From NCBI GenBank assembly GCA_002733665.1, contig NVWM01000001.1, positions 62,001 to 126,000 of the forward strand: DNA of 64,000 bases, in the 5' to 3' direction. The position numbers were made by a program, and so were the translations under genes. The notes below the pieces were generated by a model, which made no database searches, was not told the DNA's origin, and saw only the letters and a program-made list of their open reading frames with translations. Below, piece after piece: positions 2,802 to 54,924 of this stretch. Source of the DNA: Lutibacter sp. (lineage in GTDB: Bacteria; Bacteroidota; Bacteroidia; Flavobacteriales; Flavobacteriaceae). Within the stretch, counting starts at the first letter, position 1. The number at the start of each line of letters is the position of its first letter.

Positions 2802-3617
2802 ATGATTAAAAAAATATTATTTATTACAGTATTATGTATAGGTTTAGTAGGATTTTCACAAGAAAAATCAACAGATTCTACAGAGGTAATTAATCTTCCT
2901 TCAATTGATTTAAAAGGATTTATTGTAAACGGTTTTGATAAAAAACCACTAAAAGGTGCACATATTTATAATATGAATTCTGTTAGAGGAACTGTAAGTA
3001 ATAATGATGGTTCTTTTATTATACCTACACGTGTAAACGACACAATTTTCTTTTCTCATATTGGTTTTCAATCTGTAAAAATAAAAATCACCAATGATTT
3101 ATTAAAAGGTAATGAACTTGAAATTGCACTTTTTGAAAAGGCTGAACAGATAACAGAAGTAAGAGTAAAATCCATTCAACTGGTTGGTGTTTTAGAAATT
3201 GATGCTAGAAATGTACCTAAAGATAAGTACACTCGTATTCATATTAATGGATTGCCTCAAACGTATGAAATAGGACGTCCAAGACAAAAAACATATGATT
3301 CTCCTGTTGATGCAATATTTCACCCTATAGATTTTGTATATAATTTATTTGGAAAGAAACCAAAGCAATTAAAACGATTAAAACAGCTTAAAAAAGACAA
3401 TGAAATTCGTGATATGCTAAATGCTAAAGTAAATCGTGAAATAATGCTTGAGTATCTTGAATTGAGTAGAAGTGAATTAGATGAACTACTTGATGATTGT
3501 AATTATTCTGACTATTTTATACGAAAAGCAAGTGATATTCAAGTCATTGAAGCAGTTTTGGAATGTTACGAAAATCACAAGGCAATCAAAAAAGGGAGTA
3601 CTATACGAAAAGAGTAA
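2802..3617 (+). CDS. exported CarboxypepD_reg-like protein
   Basis: A 271-residue protein with a cleavable signal peptide (MIKKILFITVLCIGLVGFSQ). Residues about 35-110 form a carboxypeptidase-regulatory-like beta-sandwich: LKGFIVNGFDKKPLKGAHIY, then GTVSNNDGSF and FFSHIGFQSVKI, the pattern seen at the N-terminus of SusC/TonB receptors. Here no receptor barrel follows, only a charged helical C-terminus rich in Lys, Leu and Glu. The role is unknown, probably in the periplasm. I use the ATG at 2802 rather than the in-frame TTG at 2796. The sequence TATACTTG ends 3 nt before this ATG and may be a -7 box, which would imply an almost leaderless transcript or a promoter further upstream. Confidence 0.75.
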   Translation: MIKKILFITVLCIGLVGFSQEKSTDSTEVINLPSIDLKGFIVNGFDKKPLKGAHIYNMNSVRGTVSNNDGSFIIPTRVNDTIFFSHIGFQSVKIKITNDLLKGNELEIALFEKAEQITEVRVKSIQLVGVLEIDARNVPKDKYTRIHINGLPQTYEIGRPRQKTYDSPVDAIFHPIDFVYNLFGKKPKQLKRLKQLKKDNEIRDMLNAKVNREIMLEYLELSRSELDELLDDCNYSDYFIRKASDIQVIEAVLECYENHKAIKKGSTIRKE

Positions 3618-3622
3618 GCAAT

Positions 3623-3683
3623 ATTCAGTATTCAGTATTCAGTATTCAGTATTCAGTATTCAGTATTCAGTATTCAGTATTCA
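3623..3683 (+). repeat. tandem heptamer array, ATTCAGT x 8.7
   Basis: Eight perfect copies of ATTCAGT (3623-3678) and a partial ninth (3679-3683) start 6 bp after the stop codon of the CarboxypepD_reg-like gene. It is noncoding: the two short reading frames across it only translate the repeat. The same heptad occurs in inverted orientation at 30920-30955. Confidence 0.95.
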
Positions 3684-3688
3684 AAACT

Positions 3689-3727
3689 AAAAAAAATCCG
3701 ATTACAAAATTTGTGATCGGATTTTTT
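3689..3727. terminator. bidirectional terminator between convergent genes
   Basis: AAAAAATCCGATTACA pairs with TGTGATCGGATTTTTT around a short AAATT loop. A runs on the left and T runs on the right allow function on both strands between the genes ending at 3617 (+) and 3771 (-). Confidence 0.8.
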
Positions 3728-16567: not shown

Positions 16568-17650
16568 ATGAAAAAACGAATTTTATTAGTTGTCGCAATT
16601 GCATTATCAGCAATCTCAATGCAAACATCAAAAGCATTCGCAACAGGAATTTCAACTACCATTTACAATTCTTCAGATAATTCAATGACATTCGTAGAGA
16701 ATGGAATTACATTTTCTATTTTCGAAAATGGTGAATTTGATTTTTATTTAAATTTTTTATCAAATGGTATACACGTTGGTTATAATAGTCCTGGAATTAG
16801 CAGTAGTTATAATTCTGGATATGATTACGATGCATATGTACAGTATGATAGTTATGGAGCAATCATCCAAATTGAAAACACTCCAATATATTATGATTCT
16901 TACGGGCGTATAAAACGTGCAGGTGATATTGATATATATTATAATTCTGGAAGATTGCGCAGAATTGGCGGTTTAAGTGTTTATTATAATAGTTATGGTC
17001 GTTATTCTCACTGTTCGGGATATATCAATACATACAATAGAAATTATGTGTATCATCCTTATCACAATTGGTTTGCAAGACCTTATTTCGGATTTACGAT
17101 TGTAAGAGTAAACCCTTATAGATACAACTACAATCCATATAGATATACATATTACAGAGATCATCGTTACTCATATAAACACAATAGAAACAGATACGAT
17201 ATCCGTCAACAAAAAAGAAATAAGTATAACTCACGTAGAGCAACAAGCAATATCAGAAATAACAATGATTATAGAAGAACTGCTTCTACAAGAAACCAAA
17301 ATACTAGAAGAGTTTCTGATAGAGCAACAACATCTACAAGAAGAAACCAGAGAACTGTGAGAGATAATAATACGACAAGAAATACTAGAGACGTTAGAAG
17401 AAAACCTTCTCAAACACAGAGAACAACACGTAGTACGCAGAGAAAACCTGCACAAACACAGAGAACAACTCGTACTACACAAAGAAAACCTTCTCAGACA
17501 CAGAGAACGACTCGCAGCACACAAAGAAAACCTACGCAAACACGTAGCAATACTAGTAGAACTCCAACAAGACAAGCCTCAAGAAGTACAAGAAGTTCTT
17601 CTTCAAGAAGTAAATCTACAAGTTCAAGAAGCACGGGAAGAAGACGTTAA
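16568..17650 (+). CDS. exported Tyr-rich/Arg-rich repeat protein
   Basis: 360 residues with a signal peptide (MKKRILLVVAIALSAISMQT, cleavage near AFAT). Residues about 30-200 are Tyr/Asn/Gly-rich with recurring YDSYG, YYNSG and YYNSYG units and a PYRYNYNPYRYTYYRDHRY stretch. From about 205 the chain is strongly basic, and residues 278-333 contain four 14-residue repeats of the form RKPxQTQRTTRxTQ. The tail is Ser/Arg-rich. I recognise no enzyme. A cationic envelope or surface-binding role (polysaccharide or DNA) is plausible but inferred. The gene stands alone behind the REP island and ends at a strong terminator. Confidence 0.75.
   Translation: MKKRILLVVAIALSAISMQTSKAFATGISTTIYNSSDNSMTFVENGITFSIFENGEFDFYLNFLSNGIHVGYNSPGISSSYNSGYDYDAYVQYDSYGAIIQIENTPIYYDSYGRIKRAGDIDIYYNSGRLRRIGGLSVYYNSYGRYSHCSGYINTYNRNYVYHPYHNWFARPYFGFTIVRVNPYRYNYNPYRYTYYRDHRYSYKHNRNRYDIRQQKRNKYNSRRATSNIRNNNDYRRTASTRNQNTRRVSDRATTSTRRNQRTVRDNNTTRNTRDVRRKPSQTQRTTRSTQRKPAQTQRTTRTTQRKPSQTQRTTRSTQRKPTQTRSNTSRTPTRQASRSTRSSSSRSKSTSSRSTGRRR
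17399..17566 (+). repeat. in-frame 42-bp tandem repeat, four units
   Basis: Four consecutive units encode RKPSQTQRTTRSTQ, RKPAQTQRTTRTTQ, RKPSQTQRTTRSTQ and a diverged RKPTQTRSNTSRTP. The unit length is a multiple of three, so copy-number change would keep the frame. Confidence 0.85.
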
Positions 17651-20325: not shown

Positions 20326-20357
20326 TTATTTTTCACTAACTTTATTACATCAAAATA

Positions 20358-20404
20358 TACCTATTATTGGGTATTTTTTTGTGTTACAATTTATTTCATA
20401 TTTG
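20358..20404 (+). promoter_or_regulatory. palindromic operator plus -7 box, promoter 1 of 4
   Basis: The operator TACCTATTATTGGGTA (20358-20373) is followed after exactly 23 nt by CATATTTG (20397-20404), a near match to TAnnTTTG. The ATG of the lipoprotein-kinase-regulator operon follows 34 nt later. It is the most diverged of four copies (two changes in the left half). Confidence 0.65.
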
Positions 20405-22789: not shown

Positions 22790-23409
22790 TACGATTGGCA
22801 ATTGCAGAAGATCATCAGTCATTAATAGACGGAATTGAATTACTCTTGAAATATGAGGAAAATATTTCAATTATTGGAACGGCTAATGACGGTGAAAAAT
22901 TGATTGATATTGTGCGTTTAAAACAACCTCATGTTGTTTTGACTGATATTAGAATGCCAAAAATTGATGGTATTGCTGCAACTAAAATTATTAAAAAAGA
23001 ATTTCCTCATATCAAAGTTATTGCTTTCACAATGTTTGAACAAACAGATGCAATAGAACAGATGATAAATGCTGGAGCATCTGGTTATATTTTAAAAAAC
23101 TCCTCATTAGAAGAAGTGTTGAACGCAATAAATGTCGTTTCAAAAGGAGAAACTTATTTTGGAAAAAATGTGAATGTAAATGCTATAAATAAAGAGTCAA
23201 GTACCAAGAAAAAAGGCAAACTAACAAAACGACAAATTGAAATTTTAGCCTTGGTTGCTCAAGGAAAAACATCTCGTGAAATTGCAGAACAACTTTTTAT
23301 TGGTGTACAAACTGTTGATACTCATCGTAAAAACATGATTCGCATTCTTGGTTTACATGGTAAGGGTGAATTGTTGCGCTATGCATTGGAGAAAAAATAT
23401 AATTTTTAA
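22786..23409 (+). CDS. LuxR/NarL-family response regulator
   Basis: 207 residues. The receiver domain has acidic residues E8/D9 and phosphoacceptor Asp54 in VVLTDIRMPK, with the conserved Lys in GYILKNSS. The C-terminal LuxR helix-turn-helix (about 140-185) reads LTKRQIEILALVAQGKTSRE then TVDTHRKNMIRILGL. It is the cognate regulator of the kinase just upstream (4-bp overlap). It is the best candidate to bind the palindromes at 20358, 23413, 24353 and 25505, since all four lie at promoters in or next to its own operon. Confidence 0.93.
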   Translation: MIRLAIAEDHQSLIDGIELLLKYEENISIIGTANDGEKLIDIVRLKQPHVVLTDIRMPKIDGIAATKIIKKEFPHIKVIAFTMFEQTDAIEQMINAGASGYILKNSSLEEVLNAINVVSKGETYFGKNVNVNAINKESSTKKKGKLTKRQIEILALVAQGKTSREIAEQLFIGVQTVDTHRKNMIRILGLHGKGELLRYALEKKYNF

Positions 23410-23412
23410 AAT

Positions 23413-23459
23413 TACCCTTTATTGGGTATTCTTTCGCTTTTGAAGTCTTCATATTTTTG
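23413..23459 (+). promoter_or_regulatory. palindromic operator plus -7 box, promoter 2 of 4
   Basis: TACCCTTTATTGGGTA (23413-23428), then 23 nt, then TATTTTTG (23452-23459). The ATG follows 28 nt later. This copy lacks the long T run of the others, arguing against a purely terminator role. Confidence 0.7.
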
Positions 23460-24324: not shown

Positions 24325-24352
24325 TACTCCTCATTAACTATGTTTTAAAAAA

Positions 24353-24399
24353 TACCCTTCATTGGGTATTTTTTTACTTTCTATCCTATCGTAGTTTTG
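24353..24399 (+). promoter_or_regulatory. palindromic operator plus -7 box, promoter 3 of 4
   Basis: TACCCTTCATTGGGTA (24353-24368), then 23 nt, then TAGTTTTG (24392-24399); the ATG follows 37 nt later. Flanking A and T runs also let this copy fold as a terminator for the gene upstream. Confidence 0.7.
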
Positions 24400-25468: not shown

Positions 25469-25504
25469 TTAATTTAGATAGAGTTTTTAAATAGTAGTTA
25501 AAAA

Positions 25505-25551
25505 TACCCTTTGTTGGGTATTTTTTTGCATTAAATTCTATTGTAATTTTG
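25505..25551 (+). promoter_or_regulatory. palindromic operator plus -7 box, promoter 4 of 4
   Basis: TACCCTTTGTTGGGTA (25505-25520), then 23 nt, then TAATTTTG (25544-25551); the ATG follows 29 nt later. The bases after the -7 box (AGTAATACTAA) also resemble those at promoter 2 (AGTATTACTAA). Confidence 0.7.
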
Positions 25552-50201: not shown

Positions 50202-51607
50202 TCACTTAATTGAAATAAAGCATTGACAATTCTATCACTTGTTCCTTTTAAAGGCTTACTGATTTCAAGATTTAATATTTCTTGTTGTTCATTTTTAGTT
50301 CTTATTGGGTTTTCTAAGGAATCATTTATCGCTATAATTAATTCTTTAGCAGTTTTTGCTAATACAACTGCGCCACTTTCAATAACAGTTTTATAATGAT
50401 TATAATTTAAAAATCGCTGGTCATCAAACAATCCATTTTCTTTATTTCCCAGTACTTGGTTAATTACAGGCTTTCCAAATACCATAAAATCTAAACTCAT
50501 CGTTGAGCACATATTGATTCCTAAATCTGAATACTCTAATATGCTGCGTAGTTCTATAATATCTTCTTTTAATGGCAATCTCTGAGACCAAGGTTCTGCA
50601 TGATTTTTACGAGTTTGAACCCATTTTGGAGTATTCCAAATAATAAATGGGTATTTCTCTTTTATTGAATTAAACCTTGAACCATCATCTGCAGGTGAAG
50701 TTCTAACTAATAAATTAACTGGCTGTAAAATTTTATTTTCAATAATAGCATCAGCAATTATACTAATTGAAAGTTGGTCATTTCTTCCAGTTGATAAATC
50801 TCCGCAACTAAAGCAAATTGTCTTCTTAGTACTATTTAAGTTTAATTTTGAATGAAATTCACTTAATGAAGTTTGATATTCATTCATTACATATGGTTCA
50901 AACTGTGGAGTTCCAACAACACAAATATCACTTTGATCTACTGAAGGATAAAAATACTTTAACTCATTCTTCATCAAATCACTCCAAACTAAAAAAGAAT
51001 CAAACATCGCAGGAATTCTTCCTTTCGATGCCAAATTATCCCAACTAAAGATAAACGAACATGTTTTAATCTTATTTACATTGGCAGCATAAACTAATGG
51101 CGCTATATATGGCGGTCTTTGATGCGTAAAAAATAATATATCTGGTTTGTCTGAAGTCAAAATTTTAATAAAATTCTGCGTGACAACACTCTGACTAAAA
51201 GCCTTATATACTTTTTTCTGGTAGAATTTCATATTCTTTTCAGAATGAAAAATAGCTGCAATAAAACGAATACATCTATTCAATATAGATCGTTTTGAAT
51301 AACCCTTTGGCTTCGTGAAATTAAGTGTGTCATTCATTCCAAAAAAGGAACGATGTTTAAATAAATGCGCTATTTCATTTAATTTCCTCCAAAACTCAGC
51401 CTTTCTATTTTCTCGATATACTTCTAATTCTACAATATTAATATTACTATATTTAGATACATCATAAACACTTTCTTTCAATCCTGAATAAATAACAATT
51501 TCATCAAAACTATCTGATGACACTTCCAAGAACTTACTCAAAACAAAATTCCTATAACCAACTCCATCAACTATAACTAAACCAAGTTTCTTTTTTTTGT
51601 CAGACAT
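50198..51607 (-). CDS. putative GT-B-like surface carbohydrate protein next to neuC
   Basis: 469 residues with no family I can name. The N-terminus LGLVIVDGVGYRNFVLSKFL and the later blocks TCSFIFSWDNLASKGRIPAM, KTICFSCGDLSTGRND and DLGINMCSTMSLDFMVFGKP resemble a two-domain GT-B enzyme, where the last block would bind the nucleotide sugar. It is directly downstream of neuC and overlaps it by 8 bp, so it may be the transferase using the CMP-activated nonulosonic acid. That role is a hypothesis; the fold call itself is tentative. Confidence 0.5.
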   Translation of the reverse strand: MSDKKKKLGLVIVDGVGYRNFVLSKFLEVSSDSFDEIVIYSGLKESVYDVSKYSNINIVELEVYRENRKAEFWRKLNEIAHLFKHRSFFGMNDTLNFTKPKGYSKRSILNRCIRFIAAIFHSEKNMKFYQKKVYKAFSQSVVTQNFIKILTSDKPDILFFTHQRPPYIAPLVYAANVNKIKTCSFIFSWDNLASKGRIPAMFDSFLVWSDLMKNELKYFYPSVDQSDICVVGTPQFEPYVMNEYQTSLSEFHSKLNLNSTKKTICFSCGDLSTGRNDQLSISIIADAIIENKILQPVNLLVRTSPADDGSRFNSIKEKYPFIIWNTPKWVQTRKNHAEPWSQRLPLKEDIIELRSILEYSDLGINMCSTMSLDFMVFGKPVINQVLGNKENGLFDDQRFLNYNHYKTVIESGAVVLAKTAKELIIAINDSLENPIRTKNEQQEILNLEISKPLKGTSDRIVNALFQLSE

Positions 51608-52727
51608 CTCTAAACTGTTTTTGATGATTTAAATTCCAAAAACTATCAGTATTTAAAGATTGTAAAAATTGTTTTGCGCTATTTCCTTTTCCAAAACTCT
51701 TAGTTTCAATAGTAACTTTTTCAGTTTGAGTATTAATTGCCTCCAAAATATCATTGGAATGGTAACTAACATTGTTGATATGTGCATGCAATGCCCTATT
51801 CTCTTGACGTGTACCAATATTTATTGTTGGCACTCCATAATATGGAGCTTCACGGATTCCTGCACTTGAATTGCCTATTATAAAATTGGCATTTTTAAGT
51901 AAGACTAAAAAGTATTCAAATCGTATAGAAGGAAATATTTTAAAGTTTTTATTATTAACTAATCTTTTATAAGAATTAATAATATGCTTATTCCCAAAAT
52001 CATTATTTGGGTAAATAACTACATATTTCTTATTTGATTTCACCAAAGCATTCACAAAATTTTCGGAATAGTTTTCCATAAAATTCGCTTCAGTTGTAAC
52101 CGGATGAAACATCACGACTGCATATTCTTCAAAAGGAATTTCGTAATAACTTTTAGCTTCACTTATTGTTGGCAAATCATCAGAAAACATAATATCAATA
52201 TCTGGAGAGCCAATGGTATAGATAGATTCTGGCAATTCGCCCATTTGAATCAAACGCTTCTGAGCATCACTATTAGAAACAAAATGAATATGACTTAATT
52301 TACTTACAGAATGGCGAATCAATTCATCAATTGTTCCAGATAATTCTCCGCCTTCAATATGAGCAACCAAAATATTATTTAAACTCCCTACAATGGCTCC
52401 TGCAAGTGCTTCTACTCTATCGCCATGCACAACTATAATATCTGGATTAATTTTCTTTACATAAGCAGAAAAGCCTTCAATAGTCTTAGCAAGTGTTAAA
52501 TCCATTGTAGATTCATCTGTATGGTTTTCGAAAGTTGAAATATTTTTAAAACCACTTCGCTCTACTTCTATCAACGTATATCCATATTCTTGCATCATAT
52601 GCATTCCTGTAACAAAAATAGTTGGTTCAAAACTTTCATTGTTTTGAAGGATTTGCAACAACGATTTTATTTTACCAAAATCAGCTCTTGTGCCTGTTAA
52701 AAATGCTATTTTCTTTGATTTACTCAT
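51600..52727 (-). CDS. neuC: UDP-GlcNAc 2-epimerase (hydrolysing), NeuC-like
   Basis: 375 residues of the WecB/NeuC superfamily in its hydrolysing branch: AFLTGTRADFGKIKSLLQIL at the N-terminus, VVHGDRVEALAGAIVGSLN near 95-113, AHIEGGELSGTIDELIRHSV near 118, MFHPVTTE near 208 and IIGNSSAGIREAPYYG near 285. It would release ManNAc (or a 6-deoxy-di-N-acetyl analogue, as in legionaminic acid synthesis) from a UDP-sugar for NeuB. It is separated from neuB by the DUF559 element. Confidence 0.88.
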   Translation of the reverse strand: MSKSKKIAFLTGTRADFGKIKSLLQILQNNESFEPTIFVTGMHMMQEYGYTLIEVERSGFKNISTFENHTDESTMDLTLAKTIEGFSAYVKKINPDIIVVHGDRVEALAGAIVGSLNNILVAHIEGGELSGTIDELIRHSVSKLSHIHFVSNSDAQKRLIQMGELPESIYTIGSPDIDIMFSDDLPTISEAKSYYEIPFEEYAVVMFHPVTTEANFMENYSENFVNALVKSNKKYVVIYPNNDFGNKHIINSYKRLVNNKNFKIFPSIRFEYFLVLLKNANFIIGNSSAGIREAPYYGVPTINIGTRQENRALHAHINNVSYHSNDILEAINTQTEKVTIETKSFGKGNSAKQFLQSLNTDSFWNLNHQKQFRDV

Positions 52728-52751
52728 GTGATTTTTTATACCCTAAAACTA

Positions 52752-53174
52752 TTAATTCCCCTCTTGAGAGGGGCTAGGGGTGTGTCGTTCAAAATTAAAA
52801 ATATAATATTCTATTGCTCTTAAAACATTCTCCATATCATTTTTCACTTGATTATCTGTAAATCGTAAAATTGTAATATCCAATTCATTCATCCTTTTTT
52901 CCTTTGCAACATCCTTTTTATAAACTTCAACCAACTCATGTGAATAGCCATCAACTTCGATTCCTAACATCAATTCTTGGCAAAAAAAATCTAAAATATA
53001 ATTATCAATTGGTTTTTGTCTGTGAAAATCATATCCATACATTTGTTTTCCTTTTAACTTTAGCCACAAATATATTTCTACTTCTGTAGCATTATTCCTT
53101 AATTCTCTTGCGTATTCTTTTAATTTTGGATTGTATACTATTATTTTTCTTTTTTTTATTGTATTTTCACACAC
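52752..53174 (-). CDS. DUF559 (Vsr-like) endonuclease-domain protein inside inverted repeats
   Basis: 140 residues. The DUF559/very-short-patch-repair-like nuclease fold shows NPKLKEYARELRNNATEVE (15-33), FHRQKPIDNYILDFFC (Asp62) and LGIEVDGYSHE (Glu73, Asp75, His79), a PD-(D/E)xK-type arrangement. The start is GTG at 53172-53174, inside the right inverted repeat; the last ten residues HTPSPSQEGN are encoded by the left repeat, with TAA just outside. It interrupts the neuB-neuC gene order by about 0.45 kb and has no link to sugar metabolism, so it is probably a mobile or REP-associated nuclease. Confidence 0.82.
   Translation of the reverse strand: MCENTIKKRKIIVYNPKLKEYARELRNNATEVEIYLWLKLKGKQMYGYDFHRQKPIDNYILDFFCQELMLGIEVDGYSHELVEVYKKDVAKEKRMNELDITILRFTDNQVKNDMENVLRAIEYYIFNFERHTPSPSQEGN
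52755..52785 (+). repeat. left 31-bp terminal inverted repeat of the DUF559 element
   Basis: ATTCCCCTCTTGAGAGGGGC then TAGGGGTGTGT. It contains its own hairpin CCCCTCT-TG-AGAGGGG and is a perfect inverted copy of 53169-53199. Confidence 0.95.
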
Positions 53175-53199
53175 CCCTAGCCCCTCTCAAGAGGGGAAT
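53169..53199 (-). repeat. right 31-bp terminal inverted repeat of the DUF559 element
   Basis: The exact reverse complement of 52755-52785. It contains the GTG start codon (53172-53174) of the endonuclease gene. Confidence 0.95.
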
Positions 53200-53213
53200 A
53201 TTGAATTTGATTA

Positions 53214-54260
53214 TTATGATGTAATATCTTCCCAAGTTAATTGTTCGTCATTACTTATACTTCTTGTTGCTTTTTTTCCAAGAATAGCATTGTATTCTTC
53301 TGCTAATATTTCTCCTGTTCCTGGGCGTTTCACCCAAATATTATCTTTAGTAAAAATGGCTCCTTCTTTGATCTCAGCAATTGTACAAACCGTTGCAAAT
53401 GCAAAATCAATGGTAACTTGCTCTTCTTTTGCTGGTTCTTTTGTTCCGCCTCTCATTTGCCAAATTAATTTTGACCCTTCTATTAATTCTTTGGTCTGAG
53501 TTTCATCCATAGAGCAGACAATATCTGGTCCAGTTCTATTCATGTGATCTGTAAAATGGCGCTCTAAAATACTTGCTCCTAATGCTACTGCACCAAAACA
53601 AGCGTGATTTGATGTTGTGTGATCTGACAAACCAAAAACGCTATTTGAAAATGCTTCATGCATTTCAGTCATTGCTCCTAAACGAACTAATTTTGCTGGA
53701 GTTGGGTATAAGTTTGTGGTGTGTAATATGGCTACATCAACATTATATTTATCAAAAATTGCCAATGCTTTAGAAATACTTTCTATAGTATTCATTCCAG
53801 TACTTAAAATCACTGGTTTTCCAAACTGAGCGATATGCTCTAATAAAGGGTAATTATTACATTCACCTGAGCCAATTTTATATGCTGCAACATCCATTCT
53901 TTGCAATCTATCTGCTGCTGCACGAGAAAATGGTGTAGAAATAAATAGCATTCCTTTACTTTCTACATATTCTTTTAATTTTATCTCTTCTTCTTCATTT
54001 AAAGAGCATCTATCCATAATTTCGTAGATAGAAACAGTTGCATTTCCAGGAATTACTTTTTTTGCTGCAGCGCTCATTTCGTCTGCTACAATATGTGTTT
54101 GGTGTTTTACAACCTCAACGCCTGCTCTTGCTGCTGCATCTACCATTTCAAAAGCTGTTTTTAATGAACCTTCGTGGTTAATACCTAATTCAGCAATTAC
54201 TAAAGGCGCAAAATCTTTTCCAATTTTTCTTCCTGATATTTCTATAAAAGGATTAATCAT
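53214..54260 (-). CDS. neuB: N-acetylneuraminate synthase family protein, NeuB-like
   Basis: 348 residues from ATG 54260 (another ATG is at 54266). The TIM-barrel domain shows [20 protein letters not shown] near 19, VEVVKHQTH near 49, [48 protein letters not shown] near 192 and ERHFTDH; an antifreeze-like SAF domain forms the last 60 residues. It condenses a 2-acetamido sugar with phosphoenolpyruvate to a nonulosonic acid. Its start overlaps neuA by 8-14 bp; neuC follows beyond the DUF559 insertion. Confidence 0.9.
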
Positions 54261-54924
54261 TTGCATAATTTTTTAGAATATAATTAGCATACTCAAAATC
54301 TTCTTGCGTATCAATATCAATTTGAGAAAATAGATGATCTACTATCATTGCATGATTATTATCTCCCATTATTTTCCCTTGTTTGATAAGGTTTGTTTTG
54401 GTTATGTATAACAATCCGTTTTCAAAAAATAAGGGTTCTAAATCTTGACTTCGCTGCCCAATTTTGTAATTATATGGAATAAAGTTACCATCAATTATTT
54501 TTCCAAATTTTTGATGGTTACGTGTAACCGTCATCAAACTATCAAAATCACTTGTATTAAATAGTTTTAAAGCATCAACAAGTAAATTTTTAGGTCTCAA
54601 TGGATTTGTTGGTTGCAATAAAATGACATTGTCATATACTGTGTCAAGGTTTTCAACAACATATTTTAAAGTATCTATTGTAGGTGAAGTATCGGTTGAC
54701 AGGTGTTTTGGTCTATCTTGAACTATTGCTCCATATTTTTGGGCAATTAATTTTATACGCTCATCATCAGTTGAAACTATAATATCAGAAATTCCATTGC
54801 TCTTAGCATATTCAATACTATATGCAATCAAGGGTTTATTTCCCAATAGTTTTAAATTCTTATCGAGTAATCTTTTTGAGCCTCCTCGTGCAGGAATAAT
54901 TGCTATGTTCTTTTTTGATTTCAA
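54253..54924 (-). CDS. neuA: CMP-nonulosonate (acylneuraminate) cytidylyltransferase, NeuA-like
   Basis: 223 residues. The nucleotidyltransferase signature [20 protein letters not shown] is at 9-28, [13 protein letters not shown] near 46, and [20 protein letters not shown] near 94 with the RPK motif. It activates the nonulosonic acid with CTP to the CMP-sugar used by a transferase. It is upstream of and overlapping neuB, forming an A-B-(DUF559)-C order. Confidence 0.9.

Follow-up and report, generated by a model that had tools for sequence, protein, structure and literature searches.

Among described systems, the closest to the locus analyzed here are the RAYT (TnpA-REP) systems, that is, REPtrons and REPINs, in which one small gene is flanked by its own REP-type hairpins, the type of repeat is coupled to the enzyme lineage, and solo repeats are dispersed in some genomes. 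Their enzyme is an HUH Y1 transposase, and their hallmark is the GTAG foot of the repeat. Two other groups of repeats invite comparison: MITEs and IS elements, with inverted repeats around a gene, and the palindromes inserted in frame in conserved genes, that is, the Rickettsia palindromic elements and the CGTC REPs, the latter left without an enzyme by Di Nocera et al. (2013; PMC3733652), whose paper, in the part available to us, describes no nuclease gene between the repeats. A fourth comparison is with the Vsr-like homing endonucleases (e.g., I-Bth0305I).

We analyzed a 64,000-nt stretch of DNA from Lutibacter sp. (Flavobacteriaceae; the window), in which a gene encoding a DUF559 protein lies between two REP-like hairpins (Table 1). 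Units of this type resemble RAYT/REP systems in the flanking hairpins, in the coupling of repeat type to enzyme lineage, and, in some genomes, in the dispersed solo repeats; they differ in that the gene encodes a Vsr-like nuclease instead of a Y1 transposase, the repeat in the window lacks the GTAG foot (on both strands of the 31-mer), the repeats around other DUF559 genes are often direct, and some units are located in frame within genes. With homing endonucleases they share a similar predicted fold and apparently a single site per gene in different genera, but some stand alone between hairpins and others are fused in frame to a host protein, and no intron or intein was recognized at them (short of a systematic search). 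Unlike MITEs and IS elements, they have a DUF559 nuclease as the sole gene, the ends themselves are hairpins, and no target duplication is readable.

Table 1. Features of the nuclease locus and its neighbors (positions in the window).
Feature	Position	Strand	Basis
DUF559 (PF04480) Vsr-like nuclease gene, 140 aa	52752..53174	-	ORF and Pfam scan
Left REP-like repeat: ATT, hairpin (52758-52773), tail CTAGGGGTGTGT	52755..52785	+	Repeat search, folding
Right REP-like repeat, exact inverted copy of left; hairpin 53181-53196	53169..53199	-	Repeat search, folding
neuC (UDP-GlcNAc 2-epimerase), host gene on one side of insertion	51600..52727	-	ORF and TIGR03568
neuB (N-acetylneuraminate synthase type), host gene on other side	53214..54266	-	ORF and TIGR03569
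Inserted segment, 496 bp by G006 alignment	52727..53222		Alignment to congeners G006 and G013

The two 31-nt arms are exact reverse complements with a spacing of 383 nt. Across the entire window, a scan for inverted repeats (at least 28 nt, exact seed of 14 nt) lists this pair (52755/53169) and a second one with a complementarity of only 71%; because no other exact pair is listed, chance is not a serious option for the 31-bp pair. Folded as single-stranded DNA, each arm forms a 6-bp hairpin (CCCCTC/GAGGGG) followed by an unpaired tail, with energies of -5.3 to -5.4 kcal/mol (z -2.0 to -2.2). The repeat search and the folding thus agree with the initial annotation, which had described exact 31-bp inverted repeats with internal hairpins around the gene. 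The left repeat encodes the last ten codons (HTPSPSQEGN) of the minus-strand ORF, with the stop codon immediately outside, and the GTG start at 53174 lies within the right repeat. The latter arrangement is peculiar to this copy: most aligned relatives use an ATG that is a few codons further in and outside the repeat, so the proposal that the repeats hold both the start and the last codons is correct here, and its second half also describes many of the relatives (17 of 32 have the repeat-coded C-terminus). Of the flanking host proteins, NeuC scores above the cut-off of its model (TIGR03568) and the NeuB-type synthase slightly below (TIGR03569; 398.6 bits, cut-off 399.65). No third copy of the repeat was found in the window genome (26-mer, up to three mismatches; the assembly is 92.5% complete), contrary to the expectation of further copies and a point against the initial reading; one other DUF559 domain is present in this genome, in leuS (L005).

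Elsewhere in the window, four 52-nt copies of a hairpin (ACCC...GGGT) that precedes a T run (20353-20404, 23408-23459, 24348-24399, and 25500-25551; 67-75% alike to the first) are perhaps a shared terminator family. A 42-bp tandem repeat occupies 17398-17607, and a short AGTATTC-type tandem repeat occupies 3613-3689.

The protein matches DUF559 with an E-value of 6.9e-27 (93.9 bits; the gathering score is 20.6). The Pfam scan gives only this domain and a sub-threshold MTES_1575 match, that is, the flanked gene is not a Y1 transposase (PF01797). From invariant alignment columns we chose E33, D62, E73, D75, and H79 as the putative active-site residues. An AlphaFold (AF2) model built with an alignment of 30 sequences has a pLDDT of 82.7 (the single-sequence version, with a pLDDT of 35, is unusable); used as a Foldseek query, it retrieves the DUF559 structure 3hrl (5.8e-6) as the sole match below 0.001, and 3hrl is also matched by sequence (7.7e-24). 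The second match is the homing endonuclease I-Bth0305I at 2.5e-3, above the usual threshold; lower matches include mitoribosomal proteins (1e-2), Vsr (1cw0; 4.3e-2, weak, and behind some of the mitoribosomal proteins), an R2 retrotransposon protein (5.5e-2), and TnsA (0.5). The predicted fold is therefore Vsr/homing-endonuclease-like, as the suggestion of a Vsr-like nuclease had it, with the homing-endonuclease match weaker than the DUF559 match.

An alignment of the neuC-neuB locus shows that the two genes are directly joined in the congeners G006 and G013; we found no match to the junction in the other 11 congeners. The G006 alignment ends at base 52726 of the window and restarts at 53223, leaving 496 bp extra in the window; this segment includes 28 bp to the left and 23 bp to the right of the repeats, which may be part of the element or a later change. 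Given the closed junction in these two congeners, we read the segment as an insertion, that is, as probably gained in the window genome, with loss elsewhere the less likely alternative. No target-site duplication can be read, as the flanks at the empty sites are too diverged to call one. The minimal unit (hairpin, nuclease, hairpin) originally proposed for the neuB-neuC gap is supported by these two empty sites, and neuC-neuB loci that lack the gene do exist.

We then asked how often DUF559 genes elsewhere are flanked in this way, scoring inverted or direct repeats (score of at least 16) within 300 bp on either side and using distant flanks as controls (loci with short flanks are absent from these controls). 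Three collections were used: 32 relatives found by scanning named genomes (mostly of Flavobacterium, Arenibacter, and Balneola); a sample of the window's family, Flavobacteriaceae (149 genomes, 148 genera); and a plasmid/phage collection, from which 26 of 40 records were fetched (Alphaproteobacteria, Deinococcota, Cyanobacteriota, Neisseria, and others). In the family sample, a DUF559 match above the cut-off is found in 72 of the 149 genomes, many of the matches being weak and partial. Apart from the window genome, 82 places reach 77.5 bits, and 81 of these were fetched, leaving out one truncated hit (G050:C310) and all weaker places (a free-standing 57.7-bit gene in G147 is below this limit, so G147 is counted as having no free-standing DUF559); 26 of the 81 are in ORFs longer than 300 aa and 55 are free-standing.

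Flanking repeats are present at 28 of the 32 named relatives (1 of 28 further out), at 42 of the 55 free-standing genes in the family (1 of 49 further out), and at 17 of the 26 plasmid/phage loci (0 or 1 of 26 further out); the other nine plasmid/phage loci have none, and in phage L268 the repeat that was counted does not resemble a REP. The prediction that other DUF559 genes would also have repeats around them is therefore upheld for most relatives, with almost none further out. A strict hairpin (5-bp stem with at least four G-C pairs) is found in the flanking repeats of 24 of 28 named relatives, 26 of 42 free-standing family loci, and 14 of 17 plasmid/phage loci, vs 4 of 532, 19 of 864, and 66 of 280 control segments, respectively (equal-length segments further out at the same loci); it is missing from the repeat at 16 of the 42 family loci. 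Most of the 32 relatives have the same hairpin type on both sides of the gene, and in copies such as L020, L021, L024, L026, L028, and L029 the hairpin is on both sides even though a stop codon precedes the right repeat; several Arenibacter copies have no such hairpin pair. The repeat-coded tail, PSPSQEG-like, ends the proteins of the 17 relatives mentioned above, in agreement with the SPSQEG tails initially proposed for a widespread DUF559 family. Inverted repeats are the more frequent in the named relatives (22 of 32; direct, 13 of 32), and direct repeats, the longest up to 292 bp, in the family (40 of 55; inverted, 16 of 55; some loci have both). The predominance of direct repeats in the family is not what a simple element with inverted ends predicts. 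We had intended direct repeats as the negative control for inverted repeats; they were dropped in that role as part of the finding itself, and distant flanks were used instead. As a general form, the hairpin-pair unit is supported by the flanking of most genes, with the qualifications that direct repeats are commoner in the family and some repeats lack a hairpin.

Several individual loci deserve description. In L099, L104, L121, and L126, the direct repeats look like the 5' end of a duplicated small neighboring gene (presumably of DUF6090 type) and not like a REP; L104 (G086:C2:234561-236264) also has a pair of DUF559 genes separated by 1.4 kb, with identical domains and with direct repeats around them, likely a recent duplication. 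L169 (G146:C12:175609-176155) is a tandem array of six C-type repeats (types are defined below) with a 104-bp period and a single orientation. In L032, L033, and L038 (Arenibacter), the DUF559 frames are apparently shortened or shifted relative to those of relatives and are perhaps decaying copies. The repeat in S. meliloti probably resembles RIME elements. On plasmids of three Deinococcus species (L267, L272, and L275), a 4-hydroxyphenylacetate (hpa) cluster contains the DUF559 gene; the gene junction that it occupies differs from species to species, although the gene content of the clusters differs too.

The types of repeat were compared with a 123-domain tree (built on few columns, with 45 of its 119 inner branches open; L038 and L130 left out for length), in which we named six clades of free-standing units; the comparison omits L065 and adds L128, a fused copy. 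A flanking repeat is shared by 117 of 309 pairs from different genomes but one clade vs 60 of 1155 pairs from different clades, and by 1 of 18 pairs from one genome but different clades; with distant flanks, the numbers are 12 of 309 same-clade and 10 of 1155 different-clade pairs. By these sequence comparisons, the type of repeat goes with the nuclease clade, not with the genome. Searches of the 149 genomes agree (these counts include the copies beside the nuclease genes themselves): the B type is present in four genomes, all four with a B clade nuclease (p 5e-8); the C type in 14, eight with the C clade (p 6e-7) and two with the W clade; and the W type, which is that of the window, in seven, four with the W clade (p 3e-4) and none with the C clade. 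The off-diagonal overlaps are 0 to 2, and none is significant. The C type occurs without a matching nuclease in G053, G067, G074, G082, G086, and G131 and the W type in G060 (where one contig ends in a DUF559 fragment), G092, and G158; a W-clade nuclease occurs without the W repeat in G042, G096, and G132.

In one genome, G046, the W type is abundant: 164 copies of about 28 bp, mostly dispersed, are found with up to three mismatches (the window genome has two). In 400 kb of each genome, 14 such repeats were counted in G046 and none in its congener G161 (74-92% identity in the aligned pieces inspected); by BLAST, both DUF559 genes of G161 are nearest to clade A, whereas those of G046 represent clade A and also the clade of the window. 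Seven of the 14 repeats are in or beside stretches that align to G161, and the other seven are where G161 did not align; of five G046/G161 alignments, four show a G161 stretch without the repeat and one enters masked bases.

We also counted the pattern CCCCTN{0,12}AGGGG in the family genomes and expressed it as a surplus over a reversed-pattern control (the pattern misses types such as CCTCCC...GGGAGG). The median surplus is 8 in the 39 genomes with free-standing DUF559 and 1 in the other 110 (p 2e-6); after four hairpins per unit are subtracted, the rank test gives p 0.09 (0.05 in low-background genomes), that is, the flanks of the units themselves account for much of the median. A surplus of at least 10 is kept by 13 of the 39 DUF559 genomes and 5 of the 110 others (p 1.5e-5), and three of those five carry DUF559 inside a gene. 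We had considered the surplus as proof of spreading; it is weakened by the subtraction, and only the count of high-surplus genomes is retained.

These counts bear on an explanation that we consider improbable, in which the repeats are moved by a Y1 transposase, such as a RAYT, and DUF559 merely travels along as a passenger that became enclosed by a pair of REPs. Free-standing DUF559 and Y1_Tnp do co-occur (28 of the 39 DUF559 genomes; OR 6.5, p 3e-6), Y1 alone goes with the surplus across the 149 genomes (p 0.006), the window genome itself has three Y1 matches, and in genomes without Y1 the effect of DUF559 is only a trend (11 vs 79 genomes, medians 3 and 1, p 0.09). However, Y1 has no effect in the 110 genomes without free-standing DUF559 (31 vs 79, medians 1 and 1, p 0.85), whereas among genomes with Y1 the surplus is higher in those with DUF559 (medians 9 vs 1, p 3e-4); of the 22 genomes with a surplus of at least 10, five have no Y1 match and all five have a strong DUF559 copy. 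The coupling of repeat type to DUF559 clade and the missing GTAG foot also argue against the passenger role.

The 26 long ORFs in the family sample identify a second location for DUF559, in frame within host genes: leuS (11), hemD (6, at the N-terminus), recG (4), metH (3), hisD (1, at the C-terminus), and a dehydratase of the threonine/hydroxyaspartate-dehydratase type labeled ilvA (1). Family models confirmed one or two examples per host gene (Pfam only for hemD and the dehydratase), and the rest were assigned by eye. The congener G008 has in-frame units in recG, between residues 514 and 519 of 1gm5 (which we take to be the T. maritima structure) and just before MSATPIPR, and in ileS, between residues 534 and 541 of 8c8u and before DQTRGWF. 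Judged by eye, the leuS, metH, recG, and hemD units are at like positions across several genera. Repeat-like peptides are found at the borders of many in-gene copies, and two leuS copies (L055 and L071) keep inverted hairpins at the DNA level (score 19). Outside the window's genus, 27 of 28 in-gene copies retain all five putative active-site residues; among the 86 copies labeled free-standing, each residue is kept in 85 or 86. In the window's genus, a DUF559-derived domain is in frame within leuS in 9 of 14 genomes (G000:C7:10580-10867, L005, and the congeners L041-L048; five were read as leuS and four were placed by ORF and tree), and two of the five residues are lost in all nine; this domain looks like a degenerate insert that has been retained in an essential enzyme. 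In the tree, the metH copies and a recG-ileS clade fall among the leuS copies, on weak inner forks, as if the unit had moved between host genes.

Three further loci involve pglX or an Eco57I-type gene: a unit in frame within BREX-6 pglX on a Pseudanabaena galeata plasmid (L277:388-3321; inverted repeat flanks, score 37), a unit in frame within an Eco57I-type methylase gene in Algoriphagus (L039:1309-5688), and a DUF559 gene directly upstream of pglX in Synechocystis (L269).

The in-gene copies recall homing, in which the nuclease would cut alleles that lack the unit and the unit would be copied in by recombination, with the hairpins as by-products or protective ends and the solo repeats as remnants after gene loss. 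The second fold match (I-Bth0305I), the apparently single site per gene in different genera beside conserved motifs (e.g., recG and ileS in G008), and the patchy distribution (a strong copy in 51 of the 149 genomes) are all consistent with homing; nevertheless, homing alone does not spread the 164 mostly dispersed repeats of G046, the free-standing units are in varied intergenic places, and the common insertion sites could also reflect vertical descent. We consider homing unlikely as the whole explanation.

The same copies weigh against a host function, in which DUF559 would be a Vsr-type repair nuclease and the hairpins ordinary terminators or hot spots for insertion. The Caulobacter DUF559 protein VsrA is reported to be Vsr-like and to cause a DNA damage response in cells that lack a cytosine methyltransferase (PMC12907096); also, all 26 solo repeats sampled in G046 (the first listed) are outside ORFs of at least 150 aa. 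However, the flanking pairs are specific to the immediate surroundings of the gene and to the clade, empty neuC-neuB sites exist, and a repair role leaves the in-frame copies within recG, ileS, and metH unexplained, so we regard this explanation as very improbable.

The explanation that we favor, and hold to be reasonably probable, is that the window contains a copy of a small mobile element, composed of a REP-like hairpin, a DUF559 gene, and the inverted hairpin, with the nuclease acting on the repeat; some form of mobility of the unit is very likely. The nuclease would recognize its own repeat and cut or nick DNA there, much as RAYTs act at REPs and homing endonucleases at their sites, and host replication or repair would then copy the unit, or the repeat alone, to a new place. 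The G/P/S-rich peptides encoded by the repeats would be stop-free linkers, such that insertion in frame is tolerated. The parallel with RAYTs and REPs, with a Vsr-like nuclease in place of the transposase, was drawn at the outset and is supported by the flanking repeats, the empty sites, and the predicted fold. Judged from sequence, the arrangement of a gene between repeats recurs across bacterial phyla, and related units occur even within essential genes; these elements may thus represent a kind of selfish DNA that has yet to be described.

A broader proposal can be made more tentatively, as one that could well be wrong: DUF559 proteins may be the mobilizing enzymes of G-rich palindromic repeats that form a large, unrecognized class across bacterial phyla and parallel RAYT/REP with a nuclease as the enzyme, with a lineage that homes in frame into housekeeping proteins (leuS, recG, metH, and ileS), its putative active site intact and its ends tolerated as linkers instead of being spliced. 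We also considered DUF559 as the enzyme of the CGTC REPs. In 18 plasmid/phage loci, a CGTC-type string is present at five; because it is within the flanking repeat only in Novosphingobium, this partnership was dropped for now.

We rate the kind of system as new, its mechanism being proposed only, because it is RAYT/REP-like yet lacks two defining features of RAYT/REP systems and because we found no published link between DUF559 and such repeats in the titles and abstract openings of the open-access literature, which does not establish its absence from print.

If the favored explanation is correct, a domain of unknown function would turn out to be the enzyme behind a new type of mobile element, a class of palindromic repeats would gain a candidate author, and the Vsr/homing-endonuclease-like fold would be used for the spread of repeats. 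The pairs of clade and repeat make this directly testable, since each nuclease has a predicted substrate and a mismatched control. It would also mean that tRNA synthetases, RecG, and MetH can contain in-frame nuclease domains whose putative active sites are intact and which could affect essential enzymes.
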